A DNA stretch of 64,000 nucleotides from Rhodanobacter thiooxydans (GTDB lineage Bacteria; Pseudomonadota; Gammaproteobacteria; Xanthomonadales; Rhodanobacteraceae), in assembly GCF_030291135.1 (NCBI RefSeq), contig NZ_CP127409.1, positions 496,001-560,000 on the forward strand, read 5' to 3'. Positions 41,585-59,968 of the stretch are shown here, one piece after another; within the stretch, counting starts at the first letter, position 1; each line of letters begins with the position of its first letter. Both the position numbers and the translations under genes were made by a program. The notes beneath the pieces were generated by a model. The model worked only from the letters and a program-made list of their open reading frames with translations. It was not told the origin of the DNA and did no database searches.

Positions 41585-42355
41585 TCAGCCGCCGCCTTCG
41601 GATTCGATCTGCTGCACGAGGTTGCCGAGGATGCGCAGGTCCTGCGCGTCGAGCTGGTCGCCGTCCATGCCGCGGAAGTGGTGGTGGAAGGCACGCACCG
41701 CCGCGGCGCGATCATCCAGTGGATAGCCGATGACGGCCAGCGCCATCCACGGGTCGAAGCCGGCGGGCGGGTCGACCAGCACGCCCTGTGGCCAACGCCC
41801 GAAACCTGCGGCAGCCAGTTGCGGCCAGGGGAACAGCGGACCGGGATCGTCCTTGCGCGCGGGCGCGAAATCCTCGTGGCCGACGATCTGCGTGCGCGGG
41901 ATATGCAGGCGTTCGGTGAGGTCGGCGAGCAGGCGCAGCAGGCTGTCGATCTGTGCTTGCGCGAACGGCGTCGCGCCGTCGTTGTCCAGCTCGATGCCGA
42001 TCGAGGCGGAATTGATGTCGGTGATCGTGCCCCAGTGCCCCGGGCCGCCATGCCAGGCGCGCAACTGGTCGGACACCAGCTGGTAGATGTGGCCGTCGGC
42101 GCCGATCAGGTAATGCGAGCTCACCGGGCCGCCGCTGTTCTTCGTGCGCAGGGTATCCAGGCTTTCCTGCACCGAATGCTGGTTGGTGTAGTGCAGCACG
42201 ATCAGCACCGGCCGGCGGATGTCGTGGTTCGGCGACGGCACCCAGGTCGCCAGCGGATTGCGCGGCGGCAGTGGGGCGCAGGCGGCGAGCAGCGCGACCA
42301 GCGCCAGCACGGTCGCGCGGCGCAGCAGGCGGTTCGACATAAGCGGACGTCTCAT
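41585..42355 (-). CDS. N-acetylmuramoyl-L-alanine amidase, AmiD/AmpD-like lipoprotein
   Basis: The 256-residue precursor has a lipobox (LLAACAP, Cys26) and an Amidase_2 domain. Zinc ligands are His55 in LIVLHYTN, the His in IVGHEDFAP and the Asp in KDDPGPLFPW; the substrate-binding WHGG and IGIELDNDG are also present. Such enzymes cut between MurNAc and L-Ala, and the lipid anchor places it at the outer membrane. I chose ATG 42355, which overlaps the preceding stop (ATGA); ATG 42340 is an alternative. It is the last gene of the minus-strand peptide-processing operon. Confidence 0.92.
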   Translation of the reverse strand: MRRPLMSNRLLRRATVLALVALLAACAPLPPRNPLATWVPSPNHDIRRPVLIVLHYTNQHSVQESLDTLRTKNSGGPVSSHYLIGADGHIYQLVSDQLRAWHGGPGHWGTITDINSASIGIELDNDGATPFAQAQIDSLLRLLADLTERLHIPRTQIVGHEDFAPARKDDPGPLFPWPQLAAAGFGRWPQGVLVDPPAGFDPWMALAVIGYPLDDRAAAVRAFHHHFRGMDGDQLDAQDLRILGNLVQQIESEGGG

Positions 42356-43410
42356 CGGGCTCGCTGCAGGTAGGGTTGGGCGATCGCCAGCGCGGTGCGG
42401 TACGGTTCCGGCTCGTTGCGGTTGCTGAGCAGGATCACGGTGAGGTGCTGCTGCGGCCAGCGCACGATCGCGTTGCGGAAGCCGATGCTCTCGCCCGAAT
42501 GCCACACGGTGTCGCCGGTGATGCGCCAGCCGTAGCCGTAGCTGGCCTCGTACGGCTCGCCGGTGACCTTCACGCGCGGGCTGAAGGCGAGCTTGCGCGA
42601 AGCGTCGCTGAGCAGCCGGTTGTCGTACAGCGCGGCGTCCCACTTCGCCAGGTCGTCGATCGAGGAATAGATGCCGCCGTCGCCGCGGGTCGCGCTGGTG
42701 ACGCTCTGGTCGGTGCGCGTCCAGCGGCCGTTCTCCTCGCTGTAGCCGTAGGCGCGATCAGCCACGTCGGGGCCGCCGCGCTCATACAGCAGCGTGTGGT
42801 CCATGTGCAGCGGCCGGAAGATGCGCTGCTGCAGGTACAGCGGCAGGCTGATGCCGGAAGCGCGCTCCACCACCAGGCCGAGCAGCACGTAGCCCGAGTT
42901 GCTGTAGCGGTACGTGGTGCCCGGCGCGAAGTAGGTTTTCGAGGTGGCGGACAGCAGGCGCAGCACGTCGTTGTCGCTGACCTGCGCGGTGGTGCCGGGC
43001 GGGATCAGGTCTTCGTAGTCGACCAGGCCGCCGGTGTGCGTGAGCAGCTGGCGCAGGGTGACCGTGGCCGTCGTTTCCGGCAGCGAAGGCAGCCAGCGGC
43101 GCACCGGATCGTCGAGGTTGAGCCGGCCGTTCTCGGCCAGCAGCAGGATCGCCGCAGCGGTGAACTGCTTGCTCACCGAGGCGAGCCGATAGTTGCTGGC
43201 CGGCGTGGCCTTGTCTTCTTTTTCGAGATTGGCCAGGCCGTAGCTGCGGCGGATGATCGGCTTGCCGTCCTTGAGCACCAGCAGCGAGGCCCCGGGGACG
43301 TCGCCGGCGTAGCGCTGCATCAGCGCGTCGATCGGGTCGACCGGCCGGGTGTCGCTGGCACAGCCGCCGAGCAGCAAGGTCAGCGCAAGACCGGCGAGCA
43401 GTTTTCGCAT
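42352..43410 (-). CDS. Class C beta-lactamase-fold serine hydrolase, lipoprotein
   Basis: The 352-residue precursor has a lipobox (LLGGCAS). Its hydrolase domain carries the SxxK motif Ser78-Val-Ser-Lys81, the YSN motif (TYRYSNSGYV) and an HSG motif (VWHSGESIG). These are the catalytic elements of DD-peptidases, class C beta-lactamases and related esterases. Given its neighbours, it is more likely a D-amino-peptide hydrolase than a resistance enzyme. ATG 43446 would add 12 residues. It is coupled to the amidase gene by an ATGA overlap. Confidence 0.88.
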   Translation of the reverse strand: MRKLLAGLALTLLLGGCASDTRPVDPIDALMQRYAGDVPGASLLVLKDGKPIIRRSYGLANLEKEDKATPASNYRLASVSKQFTAAAILLLAENGRLNLDDPVRRWLPSLPETTATVTLRQLLTHTGGLVDYEDLIPPGTTAQVSDNDVLRLLSATSKTYFAPGTTYRYSNSGYVLLGLVVERASGISLPLYLQQRIFRPLHMDHTLLYERGGPDVADRAYGYSEENGRWTRTDQSVTSATRGDGGIYSSIDDLAKWDAALYDNRLLSDASRKLAFSPRVKVTGEPYEASYGYGWRITGDTVWHSGESIGFRNAIVRWPQQHLTVILLSNRNEPEPYRTALAIAQPYLQRAR

Positions 43411-43442
43411 GGCAGATTCCCCCTGGATTTTCCGCGGTGCCG

Positions 43443-44162
43443 TCATTGCACCGGCACGTCGTAGAGCGTGTGCGGCGTCGGCTCCGGCACCAGCGTGTAA
43501 TGCCACCATTCCATCGGATAGTTGCGGAAGCCCTCGCGCTGCATCGCATCGCGCAACAGCAGGCGGTTCGCGTGTTGCTGCGCGGTGACGTCGGGGGCGT
43601 CGGTGTGCGCGCGCACGTCGAAGAAGTCGAAGTCGGTGCCCATGTCCAGCGGCTCGCAGCGCGTGCCGTCGGCGGCGCAGCGTTCCAGCGTGAGGTCGAT
43701 GGTGGCGCCGCGGCTGTGGCCGGAGACGGGTGCGATGTAATCGCCGAGCAATTTCGACTTGTCCAGCGTGGGGTAGTGCTGCGGCTTGGTGCGCTGGTCG
43801 GCCAGGTCGTGCGCCCAGCGCACGAAGTGCGCCACCGCGCGGGCGGGGCGATAGCAGTCCCAGATCTTCAGGCGCAGCTGCCGCGCGCGCAGTTCGCGCT
43901 CGACCCGCGCCAGCGCTTCGGCGACCGGACGCAGCAGCAGGCACTTCGGCGCCAGGTAGCCGTCCACCGGCGTACCCACGAAGTTGTCGCTGCCGGCGTA
44001 CCTGATGTCCTCGGCGATGTCCGGCACCAGCGTGCGGATATCGACCAGGTTCGCCGCGGCGGCGGTCTTCGCCGGCGACAGCGTCGGCGGCTGGTCCGCC
44101 AGGCTGGCGGCGGACCAGCCGATGGCCCCGAGCAGTGCGATGGCGGCGAGCGGGCGGCGCAT
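43443..44162 (-). CDS. D-alanyl-D-alanine dipeptidase (VanX/DdpX family)
   Basis: The 239-residue precursor has a signal peptide (about 1-22) and an M15D domain. Zinc ligands are His149 and Asp156 in SGHSRGATID and His221 in EWWH, with catalytic base Glu218. The enzyme splits D-Ala-D-Ala. In VanX this removes the vancomycin target, but in Gram-negatives (DdpX) it frees D-Ala as nutrient, which fits this operon. It begins one base into the upstream stop (TGATG), so it is co-translated with the serine hydrolase. Confidence 0.92.
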   Translation of the reverse strand: MRRPLAAIALLGAIGWSAASLADQPPTLSPAKTAAAANLVDIRTLVPDIAEDIRYAGSDNFVGTPVDGYLAPKCLLLRPVAEALARVERELRARQLRLKIWDCYRPARAVAHFVRWAHDLADQRTKPQHYPTLDKSKLLGDYIAPVSGHSRGATIDLTLERCAADGTRCEPLDMGTDFDFFDVRAHTDAPDVTAQQHANRLLLRDAMQREGFRNYPMEWWHYTLVPEPTPHTLYDVPVQ

Positions 44163-45892
44163 CAGCGGCAACCTCCGACGCGCTGGAAATCGAGATCCTC
44201 GTAATCGGAGCTGAAGTCGCCCAGCGGATCGAGCTTGGCCATGCGCAGGCCGATCGGCCGGCCGCCGGAGGCCGCCTGGAAATCCAGCCACGCGTCGAGG
44301 TCGGCCGAATCGTCCCAGTGCACCAGGTAGCGATCGCCCAAGCGCATCACGGTGCCGGCCAGCGTCGGCGACTTAGCGGCGGCGAAATGCATCGTTCCAT
44401 CGCGCGGGCACAGCATGACGTCGCCGAACCACGGGTCGCGATACTGCCCGCTCCAGCGTGCCAGTTCGGCGGCGCTGGCCGGCTGCTGGCGCGAAGTGTC
44501 AATGGCGGACGCTGCCGCGGGCTTCTGTTTCGCCCGCTGCTCCAGCGCGTCGGCATACCAGTCCACGCCGCGATGGTCGCCCGGGGCGGTGAAGTGTTTC
44601 ATCAGAACCTCGCCGAGCACGGTGCGCGCGTCGCCGGCGTCGCCGTTGATCATGAACACGAAGCCGCTGCGGCGATCCGGCAGCAGGGCCAGCATCGAGT
44701 ACATGCCGTTCAACGTGCCGGTGTGCCACACGCTCCACTGGCCGTCGACGTCGGCCATGCGCCAGCCGTAGCCGTAGGCCATCACGTGGGTGTGGTCCCA
44801 AGCGCGGCGTTGCGCGGAGACAGGGATCAGCATGTGCGGCGCCTGCAGCACGTCGCGCTGCACCGGCGACAGCCACTGCAGCTGCGCGTGCGTGGGCACC
44901 AGCCAGTTGCGCGCCCAGCTCAGCATGTCGGTGAGATCGCAGCGGATGCCACCGGCGGCTGCGGAGGTGATCGCGGGGATCGCCGCGTCCTCTGGTATCG
45001 CCACGTTGCGACCGGCGTCGCGGCGATGCGGCGTGGCGACGTCGCCGACCGTGTCGCGGTTCCACGCACCGACCTGGCAGCGGTCCAGCCCCAGCGGAGC
45101 GAACACCTCGCGCCGCATCAGCGTTTCGTAGGACGCGCCGCCCGCAGCGGCGGCCACTTCGCCGGCGACCACGTAGAGCAGGTTGTCGTACTGGTACTGC
45201 GAGCGGAAGCTGTAGCCGGGCTTGATGAAGGCCAGGCCGTGGATGATGTCGGCGCGGGTGAACGTGTTCGGCTCCGGCCACAACATCAGGTCGCCGCCGC
45301 CCTCGGGCAGGCCGCTGGAGTGAGTGAGCAGGTCGGCCACGCGCATGTTCGCGGTGACCCACGGGTCGTTCATGCGGAACTGCGGCAGGTACTCCGTCAC
45401 CGGGTCATCCCAGCGCAGCTTGCCCTGGTCGACGAGGCGGCCGAGCAGGGCGGTGGTCATCGCCTTGCTGTTGGAGGCGATCTTGAACAGGGTGCGCGGA
45501 GTGATCTTCTGACCTGAGCCGGCGACGGTTTCGCCGACGGTGCGGGTGTAGACGACCTGACCGTTTTCGATCACGCCGACAGCGATGCCGGGAAGGTGGT
45601 AGCGGGCAACGACGGCGTCGACGATTTTGTCGTAAGCGCGGCTGGCGGATTGGGCGGCGGCGACCGGTGGTGCGAGCAGGAGCAGAAAAGCAAGAGCACC
45701 CCACCCCAATCCTCCCCTGCGTTGCAGGGGAGGGAGCAGGGCGTCGGTGCCTCGCTCCTGACTCCTCCTCCTGCTTGCAGGGGGAGGTTGGGAGGGGGTG
45801 GCTCGAGCGTGCGGAGAAGCACCGTTCTCGGACTCTCCCCTGCGTTGCAGGGGAGAGGGAGCGTCGACCCCTTGTTGCTCAATGCTGCGCAT
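44162..45892 (-). CDS. Serine hydrolase (beta-lactamase fold) with REP-derived N-terminus
   Basis: The hydrolase domain has SNSKAMT (SxxK), YQYDNLLY (YxN) and WHTGTLNGM (HTG), followed by a C-terminal lipocalin-like domain of the DUF3471 type (from about 470). A hydrophobic signal-like stretch, ALAFLLLLAPPVAAAQ, precedes the domain, but it lies about 65 codons inside the frame from ATG 45892. That ATG has an excellent ribosome-binding site (GAGGT, eight bases away), and the first 60 codons run through three REP-type palindromes without a stop. TTG 45709 could start closer to the signal sequence. Activity is probably on D-amino peptides. Confidence 0.85.
   Translation of the reverse strand: MRSIEQQGVDAPSPLQRRGESENGASPHARATPSQPPPASRRRSQERGTDALLPPLQRRGGLGWGALAFLLLLAPPVAAAQSASRAYDKIVDAVVARYHLPGIAVGVIENGQVVYTRTVGETVAGSGQKITPRTLFKIASNSKAMTTALLGRLVDQGKLRWDDPVTEYLPQFRMNDPWVTANMRVADLLTHSSGLPEGGGDLMLWPEPNTFTRADIIHGLAFIKPGYSFRSQYQYDNLLYVVAGEVAAAAGGASYETLMRREVFAPLGLDRCQVGAWNRDTVGDVATPHRRDAGRNVAIPEDAAIPAITSAAAGGIRCDLTDMLSWARNWLVPTHAQLQWLSPVQRDVLQAPHMLIPVSAQRRAWDHTHVMAYGYGWRMADVDGQWSVWHTGTLNGMYSMLALLPDRRSGFVFMINGDAGDARTVLGEVLMKHFTAPGDHRGVDWYADALEQRAKQKPAAASAIDTSRQQPASAAELARWSGQYRDPWFGDVMLCPRDGTMHFAAAKSPTLAGTVMRLGDRYLVHWDDSADLDAWLDFQAASGGRPIGLRMAKLDPLGDFSSDYEDLDFQRVGGCR
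45699..45858. repeat. Array of three REP-type palindromes
   Basis: Arms are 45711-45720/45724-45733, 45764-45774/45777-45787 (one mismatch) and 45833-45843/45847-45857, all variants of CTCCCCTGC-NNN-GCAGGGGAG. The first two units are opposed and carry CCACCCC-type heads. The array covers the region between the dipeptidase stop and the serine-hydrolase signal sequence. Confidence 0.88.
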
Positions 45893-47090
45893 GGCGCTCG
45901 ACCTCGCCCCATACGCGCAGCAGATTGCCGCCCCACAGCTTGGCGATATCGGTGTCGCTGAAGCCAGCCTTGCGCAGCGCGGCGGTGACGTTGCGGGTTT
46001 CGCTGGCGTCCTTCCAGCCGGTGATGCCGCCGCCGCCGTCGAAGTCGGAGGCGATGCCGACGTGGTCGATGCCGGCGACTTTCACCATGTGCCGGATCTG
46101 CTTCACGTAGTCGTCCAGGGTGGCCAGCGGATACTTTTTCTGGATCTCGGCCATGCCCGCTTCCATCTCGGGCCGGTAGTCGTCATTGTCGCTGTCGTAT
46201 GCCTTCTCGCCGGCCTGTTTCGCCACGGCCTCCTGCAATTTTTTCTCGGCGGCCTCGCGGCCGGGGTCGTGCTTCAGGAATTCCTTGTACGCCACCGCCT
46301 GGATCACGCCGCCCTTGGCGGCGATCGCGCGCAGCAGGTCGTCGGGCACGTTGCGCGGGTGGTCGAGTACGGCGCGCGCGCCGGAGTGCGAGGCGATGAG
46401 CGGCGTGGCGGACACCTTGAGTGCGTCGCGCACGCAGCGATCCGAGGCGTGCGAGATGTCGACCAGCATGCCGAGCTGGTTGGCGCGCTTGACCGCGGCG
46501 CGGCCGAAGTCGCTCATGCCGGTGTCGCCGGCGCTGTTCATCGCCGGCTCGCCGTGTTCGGTATCCGGCAGCGAGCTGGTGCACAGGTCGTTGTTGCCGA
46601 CGTGGACCAGGCCGACCGAACGCGCGCCGCGGTCGAACGCGGCGTCGAGGCGGTGCAGGTCGTGGCCGAGCGAGTAGGCGTTCTCGATCTCGATGGTGGC
46701 CGAGAGCAGGCCCGCCTTGCGGTTGGCCATCAGTTGTTCGGGTGTGGTGGCCAGGCGGATGCGGTCGGGATACATCATCAGCATGCGGCCGATGCCGTCG
46801 TATTTCTGGCTGGCCTGTTGCACCGCCTTGGCATAACCGGCGGCGTCGAGCTGGTGCTGCGGCACCCAGACCACGAAGAACGCCGCGTTCAGGCCGCCGC
46901 GCTCCATCTTGCCCAGGTCGACCAGCAGGCGGGTGTCATGCCCCACGTCGAAGCGTGGCTCGCCCATGTAGTTGAACGGGATGTCGATGTGGGTGTCGAT
47001 GGTGACCGGCGGATCCTGCTGCGCCTGCGCGGGCAACACAGCGGCGAAGCCCAGGGCGGCGAGGATGGCGAGGCGGGCAGTCGTGTTCAT
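45879..47090 (-). CDS. Membrane dipeptidase (peptidase M19)
   Basis: The 403-residue precursor has a signal peptide (about 1-24, LPAQAQ). The metal-site motifs are all present: IDTHIDIP (His34, Asp36), IEIENAYSLG, VDISHASDRC, ASHSGARAVLDHPRNVPD and HVGIASDFDG. M19 enzymes cleave dipeptides including those with a C-terminal D-residue, so L-Ala-D-Glu or D-Ala-D-Ala are possible substrates here. ATG 47090 overlaps the lysA stop (ATGA). Its own last bases overlap the ATG of the next gene, 14 bases in. Confidence 0.93.
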   Translation of the reverse strand: MNTTARLAILAALGFAAVLPAQAQQDPPVTIDTHIDIPFNYMGEPRFDVGHDTRLLVDLGKMERGGLNAAFFVVWVPQHQLDAAGYAKAVQQASQKYDGIGRMLMMYPDRIRLATTPEQLMANRKAGLLSATIEIENAYSLGHDLHRLDAAFDRGARSVGLVHVGNNDLCTSSLPDTEHGEPAMNSAGDTGMSDFGRAAVKRANQLGMLVDISHASDRCVRDALKVSATPLIASHSGARAVLDHPRNVPDDLLRAIAAKGGVIQAVAYKEFLKHDPGREAAEKKLQEAVAKQAGEKAYDSDNDDYRPEMEAGMAEIQKKYPLATLDDYVKQIRHMVKVAGIDHVGIASDFDGGGGITGWKDASETRNVTAALRKAGFSDTDIAKLWGGNLLRVWGEVERHAQH

Positions 47091-48391
47091 GGCGTTTCCC
47101 AGTTCCGGGCCGGCTGTTCGCCGGCGATCATTTCCTCGAAGTGCTGGCGGCGGCGCACCACGGCATAACGGCCCCGCTGCAACAGTACCTCGGCGGCCAG
47201 CGGTCGCGAGTTGTAGGTGGAGGCCATCGACGTACCGTACGCGCCGGTGGCCTTGATCAGCAACAGGTCGCCGGCCGCGCACTCGGGCAGTTTGCGGGCG
47301 CGGGCGAAGGTGTCGCCGGTCTCGCAGACCGGGCCGACGATGTCGTAGGTGGTCGTCGGGCGCGGCTCGTCCGCTACCGGCACGATGTCGTGCCAGGCGT
47401 CGTACAGGCTGGGCCGCTGCAGGTCGTTCATCGCCGCGTCCAGCACCAGGAAGCTGCGCTCGATGCCGGGCTTGACGCGGATCACCCGGGTCAGCAGCAC
47501 GCCCGCCTCGGCGACCAGGTAGCGGCCCGGTTCCAGCAGCAGCTTGCCGCGGTAGTCGGCCAACGCTTCGCGGATCACGCCCACGTAATCGGCCGCGGCC
47601 ACCGGCTGGTCCACGCCGGCGCGATAGCAGACGCCCAGTCCGCCGCCGACGTCGATGCTGTTGACCGGATGGCCGGCCTGTTCGAGTTCGCGCCAGAACG
47701 CGGCGACCCGCTGCAGCGCGAGCCGAAACGGTTCGACGCTGAGGATCTGCGAACCGATGTGCACGTGCAGGCCGTCGAGTTGCACGTGGCTAAGCTGCTT
47801 GCGATCGGCGAACCAGCGGCGTGCCTCGTCGATGCTGACGCCGAACTTGTTCTCCGACCTGCCGGTGGAAATCTTCGCGTGGGTCTGCGCGTCCACGTCG
47901 GGGTTGATGCGTACCGCGGCGCGTGCCGTCACATCCTGCGCCTTGGCGACGCGCTGCAGGGTATGCAGCTCGTCCAGCGATTCGACGTTGAAGCGCAGGA
48001 TGCCGACGTTGAGCGCGCCGGCGATCTCGTCGGCGCTCTTGCCGACGCCGGAGAACACGATGCGTTCGGCCGGGATGCCGGCGTTGAGTGCGCGGCGCAG
48101 CTCGCCCACCGAGACGATGTCGGCGCCGACGCCGGCGTTTGCCATCAACTGCAGGATGGCGAGGTTGGGATTGGCCTTCGCCGCGAAGCAGATGGTGGCG
48201 TCGAGGCCAGCCAGCGCGGCCTGGAGTTCGCCGATGCGCCGATGGATCGCGCTGGCGGAGTAGGCATGAAAGGGGGTGGCGATGCGTTCGGCCAGTTGCC
48301 GCAGGTCGACGCCGTCGAACATGCCAGGGGCACCGTCCGCTTCCCGGGCGGTTTCCTGCACGGTCGGGCGGTTCGTCGTCTGCGTGGACAT
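47087..48391 (-). CDS. lysA: Diaminopimelate decarboxylase
   Basis: The 434-residue PLP enzyme has a lysine Schiff-base site Lys72 (CFAAKANPN), HVHIGSQ, GGGLGVCY, EPGRYLV, CETGDTF and YNSRPL, all LysA hallmarks. It removes CO2 from meso-diaminopimelate to make lysine. Here it heads an operon of peptidoglycan-peptide enzymes rather than lysine synthesis, so it may drain DAP released from muropeptides. An extra N-terminal stretch of about 25 residues precedes the usual start of the family. Its ATG lies about 40 bases after the TonB-receptor terminator. Confidence 0.93.
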   Translation of the reverse strand: MSTQTTNRPTVQETAREADGAPGMFDGVDLRQLAERIATPFHAYSASAIHRRIGELQAALAGLDATICFAAKANPNLAILQLMANAGVGADIVSVGELRRALNAGIPAERIVFSGVGKSADEIAGALNVGILRFNVESLDELHTLQRVAKAQDVTARAAVRINPDVDAQTHAKISTGRSENKFGVSIDEARRWFADRKQLSHVQLDGLHVHIGSQILSVEPFRLALQRVAAFWRELEQAGHPVNSIDVGGGLGVCYRAGVDQPVAAADYVGVIREALADYRGKLLLEPGRYLVAEAGVLLTRVIRVKPGIERSFLVLDAAMNDLQRPSLYDAWHDIVPVADEPRPTTTYDIVGPVCETGDTFARARKLPECAAGDLLLIKATGAYGTSMASTYNSRPLAAEVLLQRGRYAVVRRRQHFEEMIAGEQPARNWETP

Positions 48392-48426
48392 GGGTTCGCT
48401 ATCAGTGGTTGGTGTGATGATGCCGG

Positions 48427-48459
48427 AAAAAAGAGCGGCCCGGCAGTTGCGCGGGCCGC
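48427..48459 (-). terminator. Terminator after the TonB receptor
   Basis: On the minus strand GCGGCCCG/CGGGCCGC (48459-48452 and 48442-48435), a perfect 8-bp stem with a nine-base loop, leads into TCTTTTTT. It lies between the receptor stop and lysA, so lysA needs its own promoter or read-through. Confidence 0.85.
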
Positions 48460-48475
48460 GATCGGGGGAGGGCGA

Positions 48476-51472: not shown

Positions 51473-51530
51473 GTTCCCCATCTCCCCATCGACGCCGTCG
51501 ATGCCATGTTCATGAAAAGCTGCTGGTTGG

Positions 51531-53051
51531 TTAGTTGCTGCCGCGTCCCTGCGCCGCTGGCAGGACCTGCCAGTCGAAGTCGTAATCCAGTTGATCGAAA
51601 TAGAGGTTGCCGCCGCGCCATTCGGCTTCGCCGCGTTGCGAGTCCACGTCGTCGGAGCGGAACTGCCGTTTGGACGGCTGGAAGCGGCGGCCGTAGTCGT
51701 CGTTGAAGGCGATGCGCCAGTTGTCGAGGCCGCCGAGGTAGAACCATTCCAGCGCCTTGTCGTCGGAAGGCGCCGGATGCAGGCGGCCGGTGGTGACGTC
51801 CATCGGCACCCAGCCGTACGGCGGCAGGTACAGGTAGCCCCAGTCGTGGATGTTGCTGTAGCGGCTGCCGTCGTCCGAATAGACCATGCCGGACTGCCAG
51901 CGTGCGGGGATGCCGTTCAGGCGCAGCAGGGTCATCAGCAGCAGGGTCTGCTGGCCGCAGTCGGCGTGGCCGGCGTGCAGCGCGTAGTCGCTGATGTTGC
52001 TGATGGTGGAGTATTCGCGCGCGCCGGCCCAGGGGATCTGGTCGACCGCGGTGAACAGCTTCTGCGCGATGCGGTACGGGTTCTTCTCCTCGCCCACGAC
52101 CTTGCGCGAGAACGCGCGCATCGCGTCGGTGAACACGATGTGCGGCGCGCGCTCGGCCACGAACGGAGCCAGTGCCGGCGTGATCTTCTCCACCGTGACC
52201 CTGGCCGGGTCGATCGCGTGGTACTGCGCCAGCAGGGTCAGCTCGTAGGTGACCGAGAACACCGTCTTCTGCCCGGCTACTGCCGGCTTCTCCAGGTACA
52301 CCGTGCGCTGCGGCGCCGACGCGGGCGCGATCTGGTGTGTCGATGGCACGCTGGCCACGTAGCGGATGTCTTCCTGCTGGCCCGGCACCGCCTGCGGGTA
52401 CGGAATCCACGCGCGCACGGTTTCGCCGGCGGGCACCGCGTCGGCATTGACGGTGAGCGTCTGCGTCATGCGCAGGCGCTGCGGCAGCACGCTGCTCTTG
52501 TGTTCGGCCAGTGCGGCCCGGTAGATCGCGCGCTGGTGGTCGTTCAGCGCTTCCATCGGGCCGTCGGTGATCGGTGTCTGCACCGCGCGCCGCGCCACCG
52601 CTTCGGGGCTGAGCCGGAACAGGTTGCCGGGCGAGCGCTTGAAGTACAGCGTCCTGCCGTCGATGAGCTGGTGCTCGAACAGGCCGGCCGCGTTCCACTT
52701 CGCGAACTCGGCGTCGGTGAGGTCGGGGATCTGCTTGCGCACGCGCGCCTTGACGTCGTCGGCGCTCAAGGTGAAGTCGAGCAGGATGCGGCGCATCCGT
52801 TCGCGCTGGAACGTGAGCGCACTGCGCGTGTCGGCGGACAGGCCGGGCTGCGCCAGGGCGCCGCTGATCGCCGCGTCGGCCGCCTTGAAGTGGCCGGCAT
52901 CGATCTGGGCGATGATGGGGGTGACGGCCTTGCCGCCGGTGCCGGCGAAGGCAAACGGGGCGACCAGCAACAGGGTGAGCAGGGACGCGGCGACGCGCGC
53001 GCCACGTGCATGGCGGCGTACTTTGGGTGCGACAGGTAGCAACGTATCCAT
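51531..53051 (-). CDS. Periplasmic transglutaminase-like protease-fold protein
   Basis: The 506-residue precursor has a long basic signal sequence (cleavage probably after FAFAG, about residue 36). A helical N-terminal part and a beta domain (TQTLTVNADAVPAGETVRAWIPYP) are followed by a transglutaminase-like core. The catalytic Cys lies in HAGHADCGQQTLLLMTLLR, the His in NIHDWGYLYLPPYGW and the Asp in PMDV. In bacteria this fold usually acts as a cysteine peptidase or amidase. It heads the minus-strand arm of the locus, just before the TonB receptor. A start at 53105 would add 18 residues. Confidence 0.82.
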   Translation of the reverse strand: MDTLLPVAPKVRRHARGARVAASLLTLLLVAPFAFAGTGGKAVTPIIAQIDAGHFKAADAAISGALAQPGLSADTRSALTFQRERMRRILLDFTLSADDVKARVRKQIPDLTDAEFAKWNAAGLFEHQLIDGRTLYFKRSPGNLFRLSPEAVARRAVQTPITDGPMEALNDHQRAIYRAALAEHKSSVLPQRLRMTQTLTVNADAVPAGETVRAWIPYPQAVPGQQEDIRYVASVPSTHQIAPASAPQRTVYLEKPAVAGQKTVFSVTYELTLLAQYHAIDPARVTVEKITPALAPFVAERAPHIVFTDAMRAFSRKVVGEEKNPYRIAQKLFTAVDQIPWAGAREYSTISNISDYALHAGHADCGQQTLLLMTLLRLNGIPARWQSGMVYSDDGSRYSNIHDWGYLYLPPYGWVPMDVTTGRLHPAPSDDKALEWFYLGGLDNWRIAFNDDYGRRFQPSKRQFRSDDVDSQRGEAEWRGGNLYFDQLDYDFDWQVLPAAQGRGSN

Positions 53052-53099
53052 CGACAAACGTCCCCGCAACGAATCCCCTGAAACCGCTGTGTAACACGC

Positions 53100-53127
53100 T
53101 TGCAAATGCCGGTCAATAATTTATGCT
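53100..53127 (+). promoter_or_regulatory. Candidate promoter of the plus-strand muropeptide arm
   Basis: TTGCAA (53100-53105) and TATGCT (53122-53127) are separated by 16 bases in a short AT-rich patch (53100-53160) that stands out from the GC-rich surroundings. An imperfect inverted repeat AAGAAT...ATTCCTT lies at 53143-53160 and could bind the MurR/RpiR-type regulator encoded downstream. Both are inferred from sequence pattern only. Confidence 0.4.
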
Positions 53128-53211
53128 TCTATCTAAGTCGACAAGAATCAGCTATTCCTTGATGGTGGAAACCAGCCAGCCTGCGAATACCCGCGAACGA
53201 TCCACGAGGGG

Positions 53212-54369
53212 ATGCATGTGATCCACACGGTCTGGCCCTACCTGGCGCTGATGTTGCTGGTCGCTGGTTTGTTTCCGGCGATGGAACGCCGCTTCGGCTG
53301 GAAGCTGTTTTCGGTGCTGCCGCCGATCGTGCTGACCTATCTGTTCGTCACCGCGCTGGCGGTGTCCGGGCTGTGGCAGGTCAACGCCGAGATCAAGGCG
53401 GCGCAGTCGATGCTGGTCTCGCGCATGGTGCCGGCGCTGCTGTTCCTGCTGATGATCAACTGCGACCTGCGCGCGATCTGGCGGCTCGGTCCGCGGGTGC
53501 TCGGCGTATTCGCCTGTACCTCGGTCAGCCTGTTCGTGGCCTTCATCGGCACCTATCTGCTTTACCGCCACTGGCTGCCCGGCAACGACTGGCAGCCGCT
53601 GGCCGCACTCTCCGGCAGCTGGGTGGGCGGCAGCGCGAACATGATCGCGGTGAAGCAGGCGATCGGCATGTCCGACACCTATCTGGCGATGTCGCTGCTG
53701 ACCGATGCGCTGGGTTATTCGATGTGGGTGGTGGTGCTGTTCTCGGTGGCGCGACTGGCGCCGGCGTTCAACCGCTGGACACGGGCGGCGTCCAGCGGCG
53801 ACATCCCGCTGGCGCCGGTGAAGACCAGGGCGCCGACCACCTACGACAGCGTGCTGCTGTGGCTGGGCATGGCGTTGGCGGTGGCGGCGCTGTCGGGCTG
53901 GCTGGCCGGCTGGCTGCCGGTATCCGGCATGGTCAGCGCCACCACCTGGACCATCCTGCTGGCCACCGGCTTCGGCCTGCTGGTGGCGCACACGCCGCTG
54001 GCGGAGTTTCCCGGCGCCAGCACGATTTCCAGCGCGATGCTGATCAGCGTGGTGGCGGTGCTGGCCTCGCAGAGCAACTTCCAGGGCATCGCCGCGGCGC
54101 CGCTGTACCTCTTGTGCGGCGTCACCGTCATCGCGATCCACGCGGTGCTGCTAGTCGGCTTCGCCAAGCTGTTCCGCTTCGACCTGTACCTGTGCGGGAT
54201 CTCCTCGCTGGCGCATATTGGCGGCGTGGCGGCCACGCCGATCCTGGCCGCCAGCTATTCGGCCGCACTGGTGCCGGTCGGTATCCTGCTGGCCCTGCTC
54301 GGTTACATCCTGGGCACCGGCTTCGGCCTGCTGGTGGCGACGATCCTGTCCACGCTGGCGGGCGCGTGA
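53212..54369 (+). CDS. DUF819 family membrane protein (YjcL-like)
   Basis: The 385-residue protein has about eleven transmembrane helices and the DUF819 blocks LSGSWVGGSANMIAVKQAIG and SLLTDALGYSMWVV. Its relatives are found near peptidase and amino-acid genes and may be transporters. In this locus it is the first plus-strand gene and is a good candidate for import of muropeptide-derived peptides across the inner membrane. ATG 53212 abuts GAGGGG; GTG 53218, six bases after it, is an equally likely start. The next gene begins at its stop (TGATG). Confidence 0.85.
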   Translation: MHVIHTVWPYLALMLLVAGLFPAMERRFGWKLFSVLPPIVLTYLFVTALAVSGLWQVNAEIKAAQSMLVSRMVPALLFLLMINCDLRAIWRLGPRVLGVFACTSVSLFVAFIGTYLLYRHWLPGNDWQPLAALSGSWVGGSANMIAVKQAIGMSDTYLAMSLLTDALGYSMWVVVLFSVARLAPAFNRWTRAASSGDIPLAPVKTRAPTTYDSVLLWLGMALAVAALSGWLAGWLPVSGMVSATTWTILLATGFGLLVAHTPLAEFPGASTISSAMLISVVAVLASQSNFQGIAAAPLYLLCGVTVIAIHAVLLVGFAKLFRFDLYLCGISSLAHIGGVAATPILAASYSAALVPVGILLALLGYILGTGFGLLVATILSTLAGA

Positions 54370-54395
54370 TGCGCTTTCAACATAGGACCAAGACG

Positions 54396-55799
54396 ATGCG
54401 AATCCCCCTGCTTGCCGTCACCGCGCTCGCGCTCGCCTTCGCCGGCGCACCGCTGCAGGCGCGCGAGGCGAACGATGCGTTGACCGTGCCGCCGTCCGGC
54501 GTGCTCGGCGTCGGCGAGGCGCAGCTCACCCCCGCGTTCTGGATCGGCCTGCAGGCCCAGCCCGACCGAGTGATCCTCGACCGCGCGGCGATCGAGGCGC
54601 AGAACGCGAAGCTGCTGCAGGTCGACCCGTCAGTGCACGACCTGCGCGCGTTGCCAAAGACCTTGAGCCGCGAGCAGGTCACTGGCTGGATCACGGCGTT
54701 GTCCGGGCGGCCGGAGCGCCCGCTGTTCGACGTCGACGGCCAGCCGGTGCCGGCCGCCACGCTGGATGCCGTGGTCGCCAACCGTGCGCTCGACGCGATC
54801 CCCGCGCAGCAGCCCGCGCGTTACGGCCTGGTGGTGCGTCGCGCCGCGTTGCGCACGTTCCCTACCGCGCTGCGCGTGTTCAGCGAGAAGGGCGACACCG
54901 ACATCGACCGTTTCCAGGAAACGGCCGAGTTCCCCGGCACGCCGGTGGCGATCGTGCACGCCAGCGCCGACGGCAAGTGGCTGTTCGTGGTCAGTCCGCG
55001 CTACGCCGCCTGGACTGAGAGAGAGAACGTGGCTGAAGGCAGCGACGCGCAAGTGTTCGGCTACGCCGGCAAGGCGCCGTACCGGGTGATCACTGGCGCC
55101 ACCGAGCACACCGTGTTCACCCGCGAACAGCCCGCGGTATCGCAGCTGCAGCTGGACATGGGCACGCGCGTGCCGCTGGTGACGGACTTGCCGCCGGACC
55201 AACCGGTCAACGGGCAGACGCCATACACCTCGCACGTACTCGAGCTGCCGCTGCGCAAGGCCGACGGCACGCTCGGGTTCAGTCCGGCGCTGCTGCAGAA
55301 GAACACTGATACCGCCGCCGACTACCTGCCGTTGACCCGCGCCAACATCATCCGCCAGGCCTTCAAGTTCCTCGGCGAGCGCTACGGCTGGGGCCACGCC
55401 TACGATGGCCGCGACTGCTCGGGCTTTGTCTCCGACGTGTACCGCAGCATGGGCGTCGAGATGCCGCGCAACACCAGCAAACAGGCGATCAGCCCGGCAC
55501 TGGAGCATCGCGCGTTCACCGCGAAGGACAGCCGCGAGGAACGCATCAAGGCCGCGCAGGCGCTGGAGGTCGGCGACCTGGTCTACATCCCCGGCCACGT
55601 GATGATGGTGATCGGCCGCCTGCACGGCCAGCCTTACGTGATCCACGACACCACCGGCATGAGCTACCGCAAGGCCGACGGCAGCAAGGCACGGATCAAG
55701 CTCAACGCGGTGTCGGTGACGCCGCTGCTGCCGCTGCTGTTCAACGACAAGCAAAGCTATGTCGATCGCATGACCAGCATCGTGCACATCCGCCCCTGA
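54396..55799 (+). CDS. NlpC/P60 endopeptidase with SH3-like domains
   Basis: The 467-residue precursor has a signal peptide (about 1-21). Two SH3b-like regions follow (about 135-195 and 200-280), then the NlpC/P60 domain with Cys341 (DCSGFVSDVY), His401 (PGHVMMVIG) and His417 (VIHDTTG). The layout matches YkfC-type gamma-D-glutamyl-L-diamino-acid endopeptidases, which cut D-Glu from DAP in free stem peptides and leave L-Ala-D-Glu. The epimerase gene for that product follows directly. ATG 54369 overlaps the previous stop and would add nine residues; AGGA favours 54396. Confidence 0.92.
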   Translation: MRIPLLAVTALALAFAGAPLQAREANDALTVPPSGVLGVGEAQLTPAFWIGLQAQPDRVILDRAAIEAQNAKLLQVDPSVHDLRALPKTLSREQVTGWITALSGRPERPLFDVDGQPVPAATLDAVVANRALDAIPAQQPARYGLVVRRAALRTFPTALRVFSEKGDTDIDRFQETAEFPGTPVAIVHASADGKWLFVVSPRYAAWTERENVAEGSDAQVFGYAGKAPYRVITGATEHTVFTREQPAVSQLQLDMGTRVPLVTDLPPDQPVNGQTPYTSHVLELPLRKADGTLGFSPALLQKNTDTAADYLPLTRANIIRQAFKFLGERYGWGHAYDGRDCSGFVSDVYRSMGVEMPRNTSKQAISPALEHRAFTAKDSREERIKAAQALEVGDLVYIPGHVMMVIGRLHGQPYVIHDTTGMSYRKADGSKARIKLNAVSVTPLLPLLFNDKQSYVDRMTSIVHIRP

Positions 55800-55850
55800 G
55801 CGCGCCTGCATCAAGAAGAAACAGGACACAGATTCCATGAAGGTTTGCCC

Positions 55851-56948
55851 ATGAAAATCACCGACATCCAGTTCGGCATGCTGCGGGTGCCGCTGAAAAC
55901 CCCGTTCAAGACGGCGCTGCGCACGGTCAACACGGTGGAGGACATCGTGGTGATGGTGCACACCGACTCGGGCCAGGTCGGCTACGGCGAGGCGCCCGCC
56001 ACCGCGGTGATCACCGGCGACACCCACGGCTCGATCATCGACGCGATCCGCCACTACATCTCGCCCCGGCTGATCGGCCAGGACATCGCCGACCTCAACC
56101 ACCTTACCCAGCTGATCCAGTCCTCGATGGAGAAGAACACCAGCGCCAAGGCGGCGGTGGAGATCGCGGTGTACGACCTGTGGGGTCAGCTCTACGGCGC
56201 GCCGCTGTACAAGCTCCTGGGCGGCGGCGACCCGGTGATCACCACCGACATCACCATCAGCGTCGACTACATCGACAAGATGGTGGCCGACTCGGTCAGC
56301 GCGGTGGAACGCGGCTTCGAGTCGCTGAAGATCAAGGTGGGCAAGGACATCGGCGTCGACATCGAGCGGGTCAAGGCGATCTACGCCGCGGTGGAAGGCC
56401 GTGCGCTGCTGCGGCTGGACGCGAACCAGGGCTGGACCGCGAAGCAGGCGGTGTACGCGCTGCAGACGCTGGAGGACGCCGGCATCAAGCTGGAGCTGAT
56501 CGAGCAGCCGGTGAAGGCGCGCGACCTGGCCGGCATGCGCTACGTCACCGAACGCGTGCACACGCCGGTGATGGCCGACGAGAGCGTGTTCGGCCCGATG
56601 GAGGTGATCGAGCTGATCCGCCTGCGCGCGGCCGACATCATCAACATCAAGCTGATGAAGACCGGCGGCATCTCCAACGCGATCCGCATCGCCGACATCG
56701 CCGGCATGCACGGCATCGAGTGCATGATCGGCTGCATGCTGGAAACCTCGATCAGCGTGGCCGCGGCGGTGCACGTGGCGGTGGCCAAATCCAACGTGAT
56801 CACCAAGGTCGACCTGGACGGCCCGTCGCTGTGCCAGTTCAATCCGGTCGACGGTGGGGTAATCTTCAACGAGTCGGAAATCTCGGTGACGGACGCCCCC
56901 GGACTGGGCATCCGCGAGATCCGCGGATTGGAGAGGATCGAAGCCTGA
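55851..56948 (+). CDS. L-Ala-D/L-Glu epimerase (enolase superfamily)
   Basis: The 365-residue enzyme has the muconate-lactonising subgroup signatures. Catalytic lysines are in LKIKVG (Lys160, Lys162) and NIKLMKTGG (Lys267); metal ligands are Asp190 (LDANQ), Glu218 (IEQP) and Asp243 (ADES). GCMLETS near the end matches dipeptide epimerases such as YcjG and YkfB. It inverts the Glu in L-Ala-D-Glu so that normal peptidases can cleave it. It sits directly between the endopeptidase that makes the substrate and the regulator gene. A five-codon frame (55837-55854) overlaps its start by four bases. Confidence 0.93.
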   Translation: MKITDIQFGMLRVPLKTPFKTALRTVNTVEDIVVMVHTDSGQVGYGEAPATAVITGDTHGSIIDAIRHYISPRLIGQDIADLNHLTQLIQSSMEKNTSAKAAVEIAVYDLWGQLYGAPLYKLLGGGDPVITTDITISVDYIDKMVADSVSAVERGFESLKIKVGKDIGVDIERVKAIYAAVEGRALLRLDANQGWTAKQAVYALQTLEDAGIKLELIEQPVKARDLAGMRYVTERVHTPVMADESVFGPMEVIELIRLRAADIINIKLMKTGGISNAIRIADIAGMHGIECMIGCMLETSISVAAAVHVAVAKSNVITKVDLDGPSLCQFNPVDGGVIFNESEISVTDAPGLGIREIRGLERIEA

Positions 56949-57805
56949 TGTCGCCGCTGGTCAAAATCCGTTCGGAACGCGACCAGATGTCGGCAGTGGA
57001 GCGGCGCATCGCCGACTTCATCCTGGAGAACGCGCAACTGCTGCGCGACTACTCCTCGCAGCAGCTGGCCAATGCGCTGGGGATCAGCCAGTCCAGCGTG
57101 GTCAAGTTCACCCAGAAGCTGGGCTTCAAGGGTTATCCGGACCTGAAGTATTCGGTCGGCGAGGCGATCGCCCGCGCCGACAACGGCGACACGCCGCAAG
57201 TCGCGACGGCGAGCGGCGGCGAGGGCGGCGGCGCGTCCGCCGGCAACCTGTGGCGGCGCAAGTCCGAAGCCGAGGAGGCGACCCGGCTGATCAACCCGCC
57301 GGAAACCCTCCACGCCGTGGCGGGTGCGATCGAGCAGGCCGGCCGCGCCGGCAAGGTGTTCATCATCGGACTCGGTGAGGACGACATCCACGCGCGCGGC
57401 TTCGCGCTGAAGCTGTCGCTGCTGGGCATCCTCACCGTGCACAACTTCGACACCGCGCGGATGACCGCGAACGTTTCCGCGGCCAGCGCCGGCGACGTGC
57501 TGCTGGTGTTTTCCGAACACGGCAACCATCCGGCGCTGTGCAAGATCGCCCGCTACTTCCGCGAGCGCCGCGGCCAGGTGATCACGGTGACGCGGCACAC
57601 CGCGAACCCGCTGCGCGCGCTAGCCGACCTCTGCCTGGTGGTGTCGGCGCACGACGAGCTGCCGTACATCCAGCCGCTGCTGTACCAGTCGGCGCTGCAG
57701 CACCTGCTCGACAGCGTGTTCGTGCAACTGTGCGAGGACCACGACGATCGCCACGCGCAGCTGCTGGCCAACCTCGACCGCATCCAGCTGATGCTGGAGC
57801 CGTAG
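56948..57805 (+). CDS. MurR/RpiR family transcriptional regulator
   Basis: The 285-residue regulator has an N-terminal RpiR-type helix-turn-helix (about 1-77: SAVERRIADFILENA, QQLANALGISQSSVVKFTQKLGF) and a SIS domain (about 125-265: KVFIIGLGEDDIHARGFALKLSLLG, DVLLVFSEHGNHPAL). A Gly/Ala-rich linker joins them. SIS domains bind phosphosugars; in MurR the ligand is MurNAc 6-phosphate. No MurNAc catabolic gene (murQ, murP) is here, so the ligand may differ. It overlaps the epimerase stop by one base and probably controls the locus. Confidence 0.92.
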   Translation: MSPLVKIRSERDQMSAVERRIADFILENAQLLRDYSSQQLANALGISQSSVVKFTQKLGFKGYPDLKYSVGEAIARADNGDTPQVATASGGEGGGASAGNLWRRKSEAEEATRLINPPETLHAVAGAIEQAGRAGKVFIIGLGEDDIHARGFALKLSLLGILTVHNFDTARMTANVSAASAGDVLLVFSEHGNHPALCKIARYFRERRGQVITVTRHTANPLRALADLCLVVSAHDELPYIQPLLYQSALQHLLDSVFVQLCEDHDDRHAQLLANLDRIQLMLEP

Positions 57806-57824
57806 GGGCCGGGAATCGGGAATA

Positions 57825-57920
57825 GATATTTGGGAATCGCAGTAGCCCGCTTGCGGGCGATGCTTTTGAGCCGGGATTCGGGACTCGGGATTCGCAGAAG
57901 CACCACCCGCAAGCGGGCTC
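57825..57920. repeat. Inverted repeat with GGGATTCGGGA direct repeats
   Basis: Fourteen-base perfect arms (57844-57857 and 57906-57919, AGCCCGCTTGCGGG) enclose CCGGGATTCGGGACTCGGGATTCG. Similar GGGAATCGGGAAT copies lie just before at 57812-57838. This style of repeat is common in Xanthomonadales genomes. It separates the regulator from the YkuD-like gene and may end or dampen transcription. Confidence 0.75.
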
Positions 57921-57956
57921 ATGTTGCGTGATGAAGAATTGCCGGATGAAAAGCTG

Positions 57957-58736
57957 ATGACTGTTCACCGCCGCACCCTTGCCTTGCTGGCGTTTGCCGC
58001 CACGCTCACCGGCGCCGCGCATGCCGCCGCCGCGGAGGCACCCTGGCAGGACGCCCGCCAGATGATCGTGGTCACCACCGCCGGCTGGAACACCGACCAC
58101 GGCGAGCTGCGCGGCTTCGAGCGCCACGGCGATGCCTGGCGGGAAGTCATCGCGCCGGCACCGGTGACCATCGGCAAGAACGGCGCCGGCTGGGGCCTGG
58201 GCCTGAACGCGCCGCAGCATGACGGGCCGCTCAAGCGCGAGGGCGACAACCGCAGCCCGGCCGGCGTGTTCCGCATCGGCGAGGCGTTCGGCTACGCCGC
58301 GCACGCGGCCACCGCGCTGCCGTACCGTGCGCTCACCGCCACCGACTGGTGCATGGATGTCAGCGGCACGGCGCAATACAACCGCATCGTCGATGCGAAC
58401 GTGGTCGGCGCCGACGCCGTAAAGGGTTCCAGCGAACCGATGCGACGCGACCTACACGCGAACGGCGACCAGCGCTACCGGCTCGGCTTCGTGATCGAGC
58501 ACAACGCGCAGGCGGCGCCGCAGGGCGGCAGCTGCATCTTCGCGCATCTGTGGAAATCGCCCGCCGACGCCACCGCCGGTTGCACCGCGATGACGCCGGC
58601 GCTGATGCAGCGGCTGCTGGCCTGGCTGAAGCCGCAGGATCATCCGGTGTTCGTGCTGCTGCCGCAGGGCGAGTACGAGCGCTTGCGTGCCGACTGGCAA
58701 CTCCCGGCGCTGGCCGCCGCGGATGCTGCGCAATGA
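57957..58736 (+). CDS. L,D-transpeptidase-like (YkuD family) periplasmic protein
   Basis: The 259-residue precursor has a signal peptide (about 1-25, AHAAAAE). Its catalytic block is IFAHLWKSPADATAGCTAM, with His and Cys in the order of YkuD domains. The TAGCTAM form marks the branch related to the stand-alone COG3786 proteins. A true L,D-transpeptidase would cross-link or trim peptides at DAP; a peptidase role is also possible here. ATG 57921 would add 12 residues. Its stop overlaps the symporter start by four bases. Confidence 0.82.
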   Translation: MTVHRRTLALLAFAATLTGAAHAAAAEAPWQDARQMIVVTTAGWNTDHGELRGFERHGDAWREVIAPAPVTIGKNGAGWGLGLNAPQHDGPLKREGDNRSPAGVFRIGEAFGYAAHAATALPYRALTATDWCMDVSGTAQYNRIVDANVVGADAVKGSSEPMRRDLHANGDQRYRLGFVIEHNAQAAPQGGSCIFAHLWKSPADATAGCTAMTPALMQRLLAWLKPQDHPVFVLLPQGEYERLRADWQLPALAAADAAQ

Positions 58737-59968
58737 GTGCGACCACCCGGGTCCTGGTGGGACTGGCCACCGGCGCGCTGATCGGCCTGGTGCTGGCCGG
58801 CTGGAACGAGACCGTGGCGCTGCAGGTGGCGAACGTGGCGCAGCCGATCGGCAAGCTGTGGCTGAACGCGCTGCAGATGACCGTGGTACCGCTGGTGCTG
58901 GCGCTGGTCGTGGTGGGCGTCAATACCGCCACCGATGCGGCCGCCTCGGGCCGCATCGCGCGCCGCGCGATCGTGGTGTTCATCGTGGTGCTGACCGGCG
59001 GCGCGGTGTTCGCGGCGCTGGCCGCACCGCTGGTGTTCTCGCTGTTCCCGCACAATCCGGCACTTATCGCCGCGCTCGATCACGCCAGCGTGCCCGCGGC
59101 GGCGCAGGCGGCGCCGAACTGGATCGACACACTGGTGGCGATCGTGCCGAACAACGCGATCATGGCCGCGGCCCAGAGCGCGATGCTGCCGCTGGTGGTG
59201 TTCGCGCTGTTCCTCGGCTTCGCGCTGACCCGGCTCGCGCCGACGCGACGCGCGCTGCTGATGGAATTCTTCCAGGCGGTCGCGGATGCGATGATCGTGA
59301 TCGTGCGCTGGGTGCTGTGGATCGCGCCGCTGGGCGTGTTCGCGCTGATCTTTTCCGTCTGCGCCCGCTCGGGCCTGGGCATGCTCAGTGCGCTGGGCGT
59401 GTACGTGCTGGTCGAATGCCTGCTGTACCTGTCGGTCACCGTGATGATGCTGCCGCTGGCGGTGGTGTTCGGCGGCGAGAAGCTGCGCCGTTTCGCGCTG
59501 GCGCTGGTGCCGGCGCAGGTGGTGGCGATCAGCACGCAGTCCTCGCTGGCCTCACTGCCGGCGATGCTGGAAAGCGCTGATCGCCGGCTCGGCTACCCGA
59601 AGCAGGTGGCCGCGCTGGTGCTGCCGATGGCGGTGAGCCTGTTCCGCCTGACCAGCCCGGTGCAGTACGTCACCTCGGCGGTGTTCATCGCCTGGGCCTA
59701 CGGCATCGACCTCAGTACCGCGCAGCTGCTGGCTGGCGCACTGCTGGCGGTGGTGATCAGCCTGGGTTCGGTTGGCCTGCCGGGCCAGGTCACCTTCATC
59801 GCCACCAACCTGCCGGTGGCGCAGGCGATGGGTTTGCCGCTTTCCCCGCTGGGCCTGATGCTGGCGGTCGACACCATCCCCGACGCACTGGCCACGCTGG
59901 GCAACGTCACCGCGGACCTCACCGCCACCAGCGTGGTGACGCGGCAGTCGCGGCGCGATACCGCCTGA
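58733..59968 (+). CDS. Dicarboxylate/amino acid:cation symporter (SDF/DAACS)
   Basis: The 411-residue symporter has about eight transmembrane helices and two re-entrant loops. Conserved blocks are [29 protein letters not shown] (serine-rich hairpin 1) and [21 protein letters not shown] to [14 protein letters not shown] (hairpin 2 and helix 8). DAACS proteins import glutamate, aspartate or C4-dicarboxylates with Na or H ions. As the last plus-strand gene it could bring in glutamate released from muropeptides in the periplasm. It is coupled to the YkuD-like gene. Confidence 0.92.

Follow-up and report, generated by a model that had tools for sequence, protein, structure and literature searches.

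Introduction

How Gram-negative bacteria break down the stem peptides of murein is less well mapped than how they recycle them. The closest described systems are ykfABCD of Bacillus and MpaA-YcjG-PepD of E. coli, in each of which a dipeptide epimerase is paired with an endopeptidase for the bond between gamma-D-Glu and diaminopimelate (DAP); ykfB-ykfC adjacency is described for several bacteria in the relevant passages of PMC2954226. The same muropeptides are the object of AmpG-NagZ-AmpD-AnmK-Mpl recycling. Where Mpl is missing, a Caulobacter study of 2026 supposes that stems are degraded to amino acids, and its passages on this point name no enzymes (PMC13046382). Here we describe a 14-gene locus of Rhodanobacter thiooxydans, at 41585-59968 of a window of 64,000 nucleotides (the whole stretch analysed, positions 496,001 to 560,000 of contig NZ_CP127409.1), which we read, at a probability of roughly three in four, as serving the regulated catabolism of murein stem peptides. 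Eight genes on the minus strand (A-H) and six on the plus strand (I-N) diverge at 53.1 kb, where a relatively A+T-rich region separates H from I (Table 1).

The locus is best filed with the YkfBC/MpaA-YcjG kind, since it too joins a dipeptide epimerase (K) to a candidate gamma-D-Glu-DAP endopeptidase (J). It differs from those systems in transport, with a TonB-dependent receptor (G), a DUF819 carrier (I) and SDF or APC carriers where they have an oligopeptide ABC importer, and in its enzymes: it adds a DAP decarboxylase (F), VanX-like (C), M19 (E) and transglutaminase-like (H) enzymes, two serine hydrolases (B and D) and an RpiR regulator (L), it does without an S66 LD-carboxypeptidase, and Asn replaces the Asp256 of YkfC. 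Neither an S66 LD-carboxypeptidase nor an oligopeptide ABC importer is matched by Pfam among the 14 locus proteins. AmpG-NagZ-AmpD-AnmK-Mpl recycles rather than degrades, and the present genome encodes AmpG, NagZ, AnmK and Mpl outside the locus. With the DgcN-DgcA D-glutamate pathway, named in passages of PMC10845958, the handling of D-Glu is common, and in a second type of locus, described below, its genes have orthologues of F and D as neighbours in 9/9 cases and of B in 8/9. That pathway, going by the NCBIfam names, uses N-acetyl-D-Glu and has a neighbouring LysR gene, whereas the present locus has a dipeptide epimerase and RpiR. L shares the HTH_6 plus SIS architecture of the E. coli MurR-type RpiR regulators, but it accompanies peptide genes rather than N-acetylmuramic acid (MurNAc) genes and misses the MurR equivalog cut-off (83.8 against 408). 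Literature searches, in which the largest result sets were covered by their top-ranked papers, found no description of this locus; single-site RpiR control, a DUF819 route, a catabolic LysA and the second locus type would be potentially new.

Conservation of the locus

Relatives were collected in two sets, which share genomes and are neither additive nor independent. The family set holds 47 loci besides our own, in stretches of up to 20 kb around the K orthologue. The named set, the best 80 of 575 confirmed loci, is unsuited to mapping distant phyla, and its stretches reach just 10 kb from the match, so that A-D are under-counted there. Genes were counted by tblastn at 45% identity (40% for G) and 40% coverage.

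A K orthologue (at least 61% identity) occurs in 48 of 97 family genomes, own included. Around it, among the 47 family loci, were counted J 46, M 45, L 43, H 43, D 42, C 41, I 41, N 41, G 39, B 38, E 36, F 35 and A 11, A often lying beyond the fetched stretch; the flanking RND and trpD genes, both near or beyond the stretch ends, were counted in 1 and 2. For the genes present, order and divergent layout are unchanged across all 47. A sequence-only reading of this DNA had proposed a muropeptide-scavenging locus and had listed a lack of conserved gene order in relatives among the outcomes that would refute it; the opposite was found, in strong form. Four reduced family loci (L071-L074) are without L, F, G and H. 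In four others (L036, L037, L039 and L049) the receptor, DUF819 and M19 genes are jointly missing, which suggests that G, I and E act as a single uptake module.

The named loci come from Rhodanobacteraceae, Xanthomonadaceae and some Alteromonadales. The closest K relatives among the matches listed, at 99% identity, are those of Rhodanobacter thiooxydans LCS2 and Rhodanobacter sp. Soil772. Counts in the 80 loci are J 75, L 74, G 67, H 65, M 62, N 50, D 49, C 39, F 27, I 23 and E 20, and reduced or rearranged versions are found in Xanthomonas, Stenotrophomonas, Lysobacter and Alteromonadales. Some are not collinear: B lies on the opposite strand in L112 and L117, D and A lie downstream of N in L131, and A is placed between C and D in L140, L142, L150 and L154. 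In a Bowmanella locus (L162), two TonB receptors and DUF819-NlpC-epimerase point away from each other, and VanX comes after the epimerase; a Lacimicrobium locus (L147) resembles it, with no DUF819 gene seen there. At the downstream end, N and an APC amino-acid permease (a family assigned from one member) largely replace each other: across 127 loci, the sets sharing genomes, N alone occurs in 89, the permease alone in 16, both in 2 and neither in 20. An amino-acid-oxidase-like flavin adenine dinucleotide (FAD) oxidoreductase (for instance L089:14268-15389; PF01266 in the one member scanned) closes this end in 33 of the 47 family loci, and a search of our own genome with it found nothing.

Is the locus a unit of inheritance? 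Fisher tests ignore relatedness, and comparison within genera is for that reason the better evidence. Seven genera (g1, g4, g5, g15, g19, g22 and g26) mix K-positive and K-negative species, and the K-negative species, 13 of 13, are also without an F orthologue and the exact regulatory element; the locus seems to be gained or lost as a unit.

A regulatory element between the divergent arms

The sequence-only reading had placed the centre of the locus in an AT-rich region near 53.1 kb, and the bin of lowest G+C in the scanned 40-62 kb, 53000-53499 (0.598), indeed lies between the divergent genes. We took the intergenic region from H to the first plus-strand gene from 109 sources (the window and 108 loci), 67 of them non-redundant. 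In these 67, GTCAATAA occurs in 66 and ATAATTTA in 65, where shuffles expect 0.4 and 0.1. The conserved blocks in the window are TGTGTAACA (53088-53096), GGTCAATAATTTATGCTT (53111-53128) and AGAATCAGCTATTCC (53144-53158), and the footprint consensus reads TGTGTAaCA...GGTCAATAATTTAT.CTT...GAAt.A..TATTCc. The near-invariant GTCAATAATTTATKC is present in 42 of 97 whole genomes. Each of these has a single copy, which shares a contig with K in every case, at a distance of 176-2998 bases; the reversed pattern, as a control, is in 0/97.

The element goes with the regulator. Allowing one mismatch, it was found in 43/43 family loci with L and in 0/4 without, and in 72 of 74 named loci with L. Of the five named loci that have the element without a counted L, two (L144 and L153) lie on truncated contigs, the L of L135 falls below threshold at 39% identity, and in L147 and L162 no L was found in the available stretch. 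Conversely, L109 and L112 have RpiR and no element within one mismatch; one-mismatch forms occur in L069, in L070 and in several further loci. The core AATAATTTATK has 2, 2, 2 and 1 copies in four Alteromonadales loci, against 0.02-0.055 expected, and each of the four has one of its copies ahead of the first gene on the plus strand. L135 and L163 have their second copy directly upstream of the RpiR gene itself. A second copy at L147:5089 stands upstream of the second TonB receptor of Lacimicrobium, which suggests a wider regulon there.

From this co-occurrence L would be the protein that binds the element, and the two arms probably share one DNA switch; a single predicted operator of this kind allows a clean test of regulation. 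Read by eye, the footprint looks like overlapping divergent promoters. A scan with the sigma-70 consensus missed the TTGCAA/TATGCT promoter seen by eye and returned one other match. As a stand-alone operator GGAAT-N5-ATTCC was rejected: at up to two mismatches the window has 13 occurrences against 8.80 expected, a number that 11 of 100 shuffles reach, so that only its place in the footprint counts.

What might L sense? RpiR regulators usually sense sugar phosphates. MurNAc 6-phosphate (MurNAc-6-P) is a candidate ligand, since it would be made by AnmK and would not be removed in a genome with no MurQ over its cut-off.

Specificity of the epimerase and the endopeptidase

K is 49% identical over the aligned stretch to 1jpm, a solved L-Ala-D/L-Glu epimerase, and 12 of 13 inspected residues are the same: R24, T135, K160, K162, D190, E218, D243, K267, M296, E298, D321 and D323, with C295 being Ser in 1jpm. 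The inspected positions are taken to include the catalytic and substrate-binding residues of 1jpm.

J has the SH3b plus NlpC/P60 pairing and was counted beside the epimerase in 46 of 47 family loci; its nearest solved relative is 3m1u. In a profile alignment with 3h41, Asn359 of J occupies the position of Asp256 in BcYkfC, and aligned J orthologues have Asn in 10 of 11 and Asp in one. Asp256 is described as essential for the specificity of YkfC toward free N-terminal L-Ala in the passages of PMC2954226 on that enzyme. The ykf-like partnership of NlpC/P60 enzyme and epimerase, seen by the sequence-only reading, is thus present, while the residue of the free-L-Ala YkfC enzymes is not, and with Asn in place of Asp, J may also act on sugar-linked muropeptides. 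Tyr203 in SH3b1 of J is invariant (11/11) and may correspond to Tyr118 of BcYkfC; the profile left the SH3b of 3h41 unaligned.

The decarboxylase and a second locus type

Orthologues of F (at least 65% identity) occur in 45 of 97 family genomes, 36 inside the K locus and nine elsewhere. Each of these nine lies in a locus of a second type (L075-L083), and 0/9 of their genomes have a K orthologue. There F is near a 27-32% relative of K, together with D in all nine, B in eight and C counted in three. The K relative scores above the DgcA cut-off in 9/9, and DgcN is above its own in eight, the ninth (L083, 413.5 of 480) being clipped at the contig start. A gamma-glutamyltransferase over the TIGR00066 cut-off and a LysR-like gene (one scanned) are each found in eight. 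A peptidase of family S58 is present in addition in L075, and GltS together with a D-amino acid dehydrogenase in L078. The DgcA of L078 is also over the cut-off for the E. coli-type L-Ala-D/L-Glu epimerase (350.8 of 343), and the other eight come near it (302-334); by these scores the second-type DgcA proteins, that of L078 above all, may also be epimerases of dipeptides.

Two different D-Glu-handling enzymes are thus accompanied by orthologues of F, D and B, and it is on this above all that we base the catabolic reading of F.

The DUF819 carrier

Of 274 class genomes, 12 have a DUF819 homologue, our own among them. In two of the 274, from one genus of another family, no more than about 15 bp separate the gene from an epimerase of 35% identity. 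The best fold match of the AlphaFold model of I (19 sequences) is the Na+/citrate symporter CitS (template-modelling score up to 0.69, best E 4.7e-5, 14% identity); two antiporters, NapA and the aspartate:alanine exchanger AspT, rank lower. A fold of this predicted kind would be suited to an anionic dipeptide, for example L-Ala-D-Glu.

A proposed route and its alternatives

In the route that we propose, the receptor G would admit muropeptides or wall fragments, and the exported hydrolases A, B, C, D, E, H, J and M would trim them, with J cutting the gamma-D-Glu-DAP bond and C and E splitting D-Ala-D-Ala and other dipeptides. L-Ala-D-Glu would be imported by I as a CitS-like carrier, and the released amino acids by N or, in many Xanthomonadaceae, by the APC permease. 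Import would be required because the epimerase K and the DAP decarboxylase F are without export signals. In the cytoplasm K would convert L-Ala-D-Glu to L-Ala-L-Glu, and F would decarboxylate the released meso-DAP to L-lysine. L would control both arms via the AATAATTTAT element at 53.1 kb, perhaps in response to a cell-wall sugar phosphate, for example MurNAc-6-P. The locus would offer a candidate for a near-complete stem-peptide route, with a role for a DUF819 carrier and for a catabolic LysA. The more specific picture, in which G and I form a new transport route for L-Ala-D-Glu or stem peptides, an RpiR protein that senses a cell-wall sugar phosphate switches the system through one operator per genome, a dedicated catabolic DAP decarboxylase stands at its end and loci of the second type use gamma-glutamyltransferase, DgcN and DgcA for D-Glu instead, is tentative, and we hold it at clearly less than even odds.

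Several findings weigh against the catabolic reading. K falls below the NCBIfam cut-offs for L-Ala-D/L-Glu epimerases (254 of 500; 112 of 343), and J, with Asn at the position that defines the free-L-Ala YkfC enzymes, may be a wall lysin rather than an enzyme of the YkfC type. The locus holds no evident cytoplasmic dipeptidase for L-Ala-L-Glu, and no sugar enzyme either, though RpiR regulators are normally sensors of sugar phosphates. The association of element and regulator has its exceptions in the named set, the element being found in five of the six loci without a counted L and missing in two of the 74 with it. Nor do F and I look essential to the pathway: F is missing from 12 of the 48 K genomes, and I was counted in 23 of the best 80 named loci. 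Only three of the 12 DUF819 genomes, own included, have the gene beside an epimerase, the other nine showing no listed epimerase match nearby; among these nine are two from the same order that do carry a K orthologue, but at a distance from the DUF819 gene.

Could the locus instead be a catabolic overflow that works alongside AmpG-Mpl recycling and recovers the cell's own turnover peptides, not foreign peptidoglycan? AmpG, NagZ, AnmK and Mpl are indeed in the genome and the locus enzymes look periplasmic or cytoplasmic; a TonB receptor in 39 of 47 family loci, and in one Bowmanella and one Lacimicrobium locus, suggests uptake from outside, however, and Mpl already reuses the tripeptide. We regard self-recycling as somewhat unlikely. 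An attack by J, H and A on the intact walls of other bacteria, with amino-acid uptake secondary, would fit the Asn that J has in common with 3m1u, which we take to be a wall lysin, and the transglutaminase-like peptidase fold of H. Against this, the carriers form a catabolic end together with K and F, which have no export signals, and the invariant Tyr203 of J may be the YkfC tyrosine, so that a primarily lytic role seems to us improbable.

Two further explanations concern single genes. F scores as a DAP decarboxylase equivalog and might be an ordinary biosynthetic lysA located here by chance, but its orthologues are found solely in the two locus types (36 plus 9 of the 45 found). Moreover, all 45 genomes have a second, distant LysA match (34-39% identity, in frames mostly near 900 aa), which in our own genome is a bifunctional aspartate kinase/DAP decarboxylase fusion (1231.6, cut-off 802), and a chance location is accordingly quite improbable. 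That B, C and D, by their family-level matches, are antibiotic-resistance genes (class C beta-lactamases and VanX) and not catabolic ones is very hard to believe: the cut-offs are widely missed (class C 94.3 and 85.2 against 415, VanX 190.9 against 320), and the three are conserved together with wall-peptide genes. The catabolic reading gains support from the gene order, the shared element and the orthology-linked second locus type; with order and element conserved across genera and families, the locus is more than a chance assembly.

Gene inventory and the rest of the genome

The sequence-only reading had counted thirteen genes; its gene families are at the places it gave, and the number is corrected to 14. 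Each of the 14 proteins has at least one Pfam match above the curated cut-off, and F alone is above an NCBIfam cut-off (TIGR01048, 467.9 against 297.9).

Table 1. Features of the locus, with coordinates in the window and the evidence for each assignment
Feature	Coordinates	Strand	Evidence
A: N-acetylmuramoyl-L-alanine amidase (Amidase_2), lipobox	41585..42340	-	PF01510 115.6 bits; AmpD equivalog 98.2, below cut-off 143
B: beta-lactamase-fold serine hydrolase, lipobox	42352..43410	-	PF00144 241.8 bits; class C equivalog 94.3, below cut-off 415
C: VanX-like D-Ala-D-Ala dipeptidase (M15), export signal likely	43443..44162	-	PF01427 148.7 bits; VanX equivalog 190.9, below cut-off 320
D: AmpH-like serine hydrolase with DUF3471	44162..45892	-	PF00144 219.7 bits; AmpH equivalog 93.2, below cut-off 266
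E: M19 dipeptidase, export signal likely	45879..47090	-	PF01244 301.6 bits
F: diaminopimelate decarboxylase LysA, second copy, without export signal	47087..48391	-	TIGR01048; PDB DAP decarboxylases; orthologue distribution
G: TonB-dependent receptor with CarboxypepD_reg domain	48476..51481	-	PF13620, PF07715, PF25183
H: transglutaminase-like cysteine peptidase, export signal likely	51531..53051	-	PF01841 58.3 bits
Divergent intergenic block, candidate promoters and candidate RpiR operator	53088..53158	none	conserved footprint
I: DUF819 inner-membrane carrier, CitS-like predicted fold	53212..54369	+	PF05684 252.6 bits; model pLDDT (predicted local distance difference test) 87.3
J: SH3 and NlpC/P60 enzyme, Asn359 at the BcYkfC Asp256 position	54396..55799	+	PF12913, PF00877; 3m1u
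K: dipeptide epimerase (enolase superfamily), without export signal	55851..56948	+	49% identity to 1jpm
L: RpiR-family regulator (HTH_6 and SIS)	56948..57805	+	PF01418, PF01380; co-occurs with element
M: divergent YkuD-domain protein, export signal likely	57957..58736	+	PF03734 26.5 bits, cut-off 23.4
N: SDF (GltP-like) symporter	58733..59968	+	PF00375 266.2 bits; GltP equivalog 149.3, below cut-off 638

Export was predicted by a simple heuristic of hydrophobicity and lipoboxes, from which D was excluded for its uncertain start. Signals are suggested in A, B, C, E, G, H, J and M, with lipoboxes in A and B, and many membrane segments are predicted in I and N; in F, K and L the heuristic found nothing callable as an export signal. 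The view that nearly all the enzymes carry signal peptides needs correction for the epimerase, LysA and the regulator.

B would be of the peptidase type. C is below the DdpX equivalog cut-off as well (113.4 against 176). H matches 3isr both by profile and by fold (predicted model, pLDDT 76.2), and its presumed triad, Cys365, His402 and Asp418, is invariant in 21/21 aligned sequences. M is possibly an LD-carboxypeptidase or a transpeptidase; a PDB relative was sought by sequence and no significant one was found.

Peptidoglycan recycling genes are found elsewhere in the genome, a single contig of 3,516,421 bases. Outside the locus we find AmpG (444.7 bits, cut-off 350), Mpl (646.3, cut-off 388.7), AnmK (452, cut-off 24) and NagZ (414.3, cut-off 207), the last being one of three GH3 genes, while no MurQ is over its cut-off in this genome. 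The sequence-only reading, having seen no nagZ, anmK or murQ, held that the peptide part alone would be used; both points are true of the locus, and for the genome they fail, except that MurQ stays below cut-off throughout. AnmK is in 97/97 family genomes, and MurQ is over its cut-off in just two, G042 and G096, both of which carry second-type loci (L075 and L083). AnmK and AmpG adjoin each other at G000:C1:3358030-3360822, outside the window.

A dispersed GC-rich repeat at about 45695-45892 is fused into the 5' end of D, the true start of which is uncertain. Similar copies lie at 10345-10398 and 28896-29003, and also in two GH3-gene loci of the same genome (L164 and L165).

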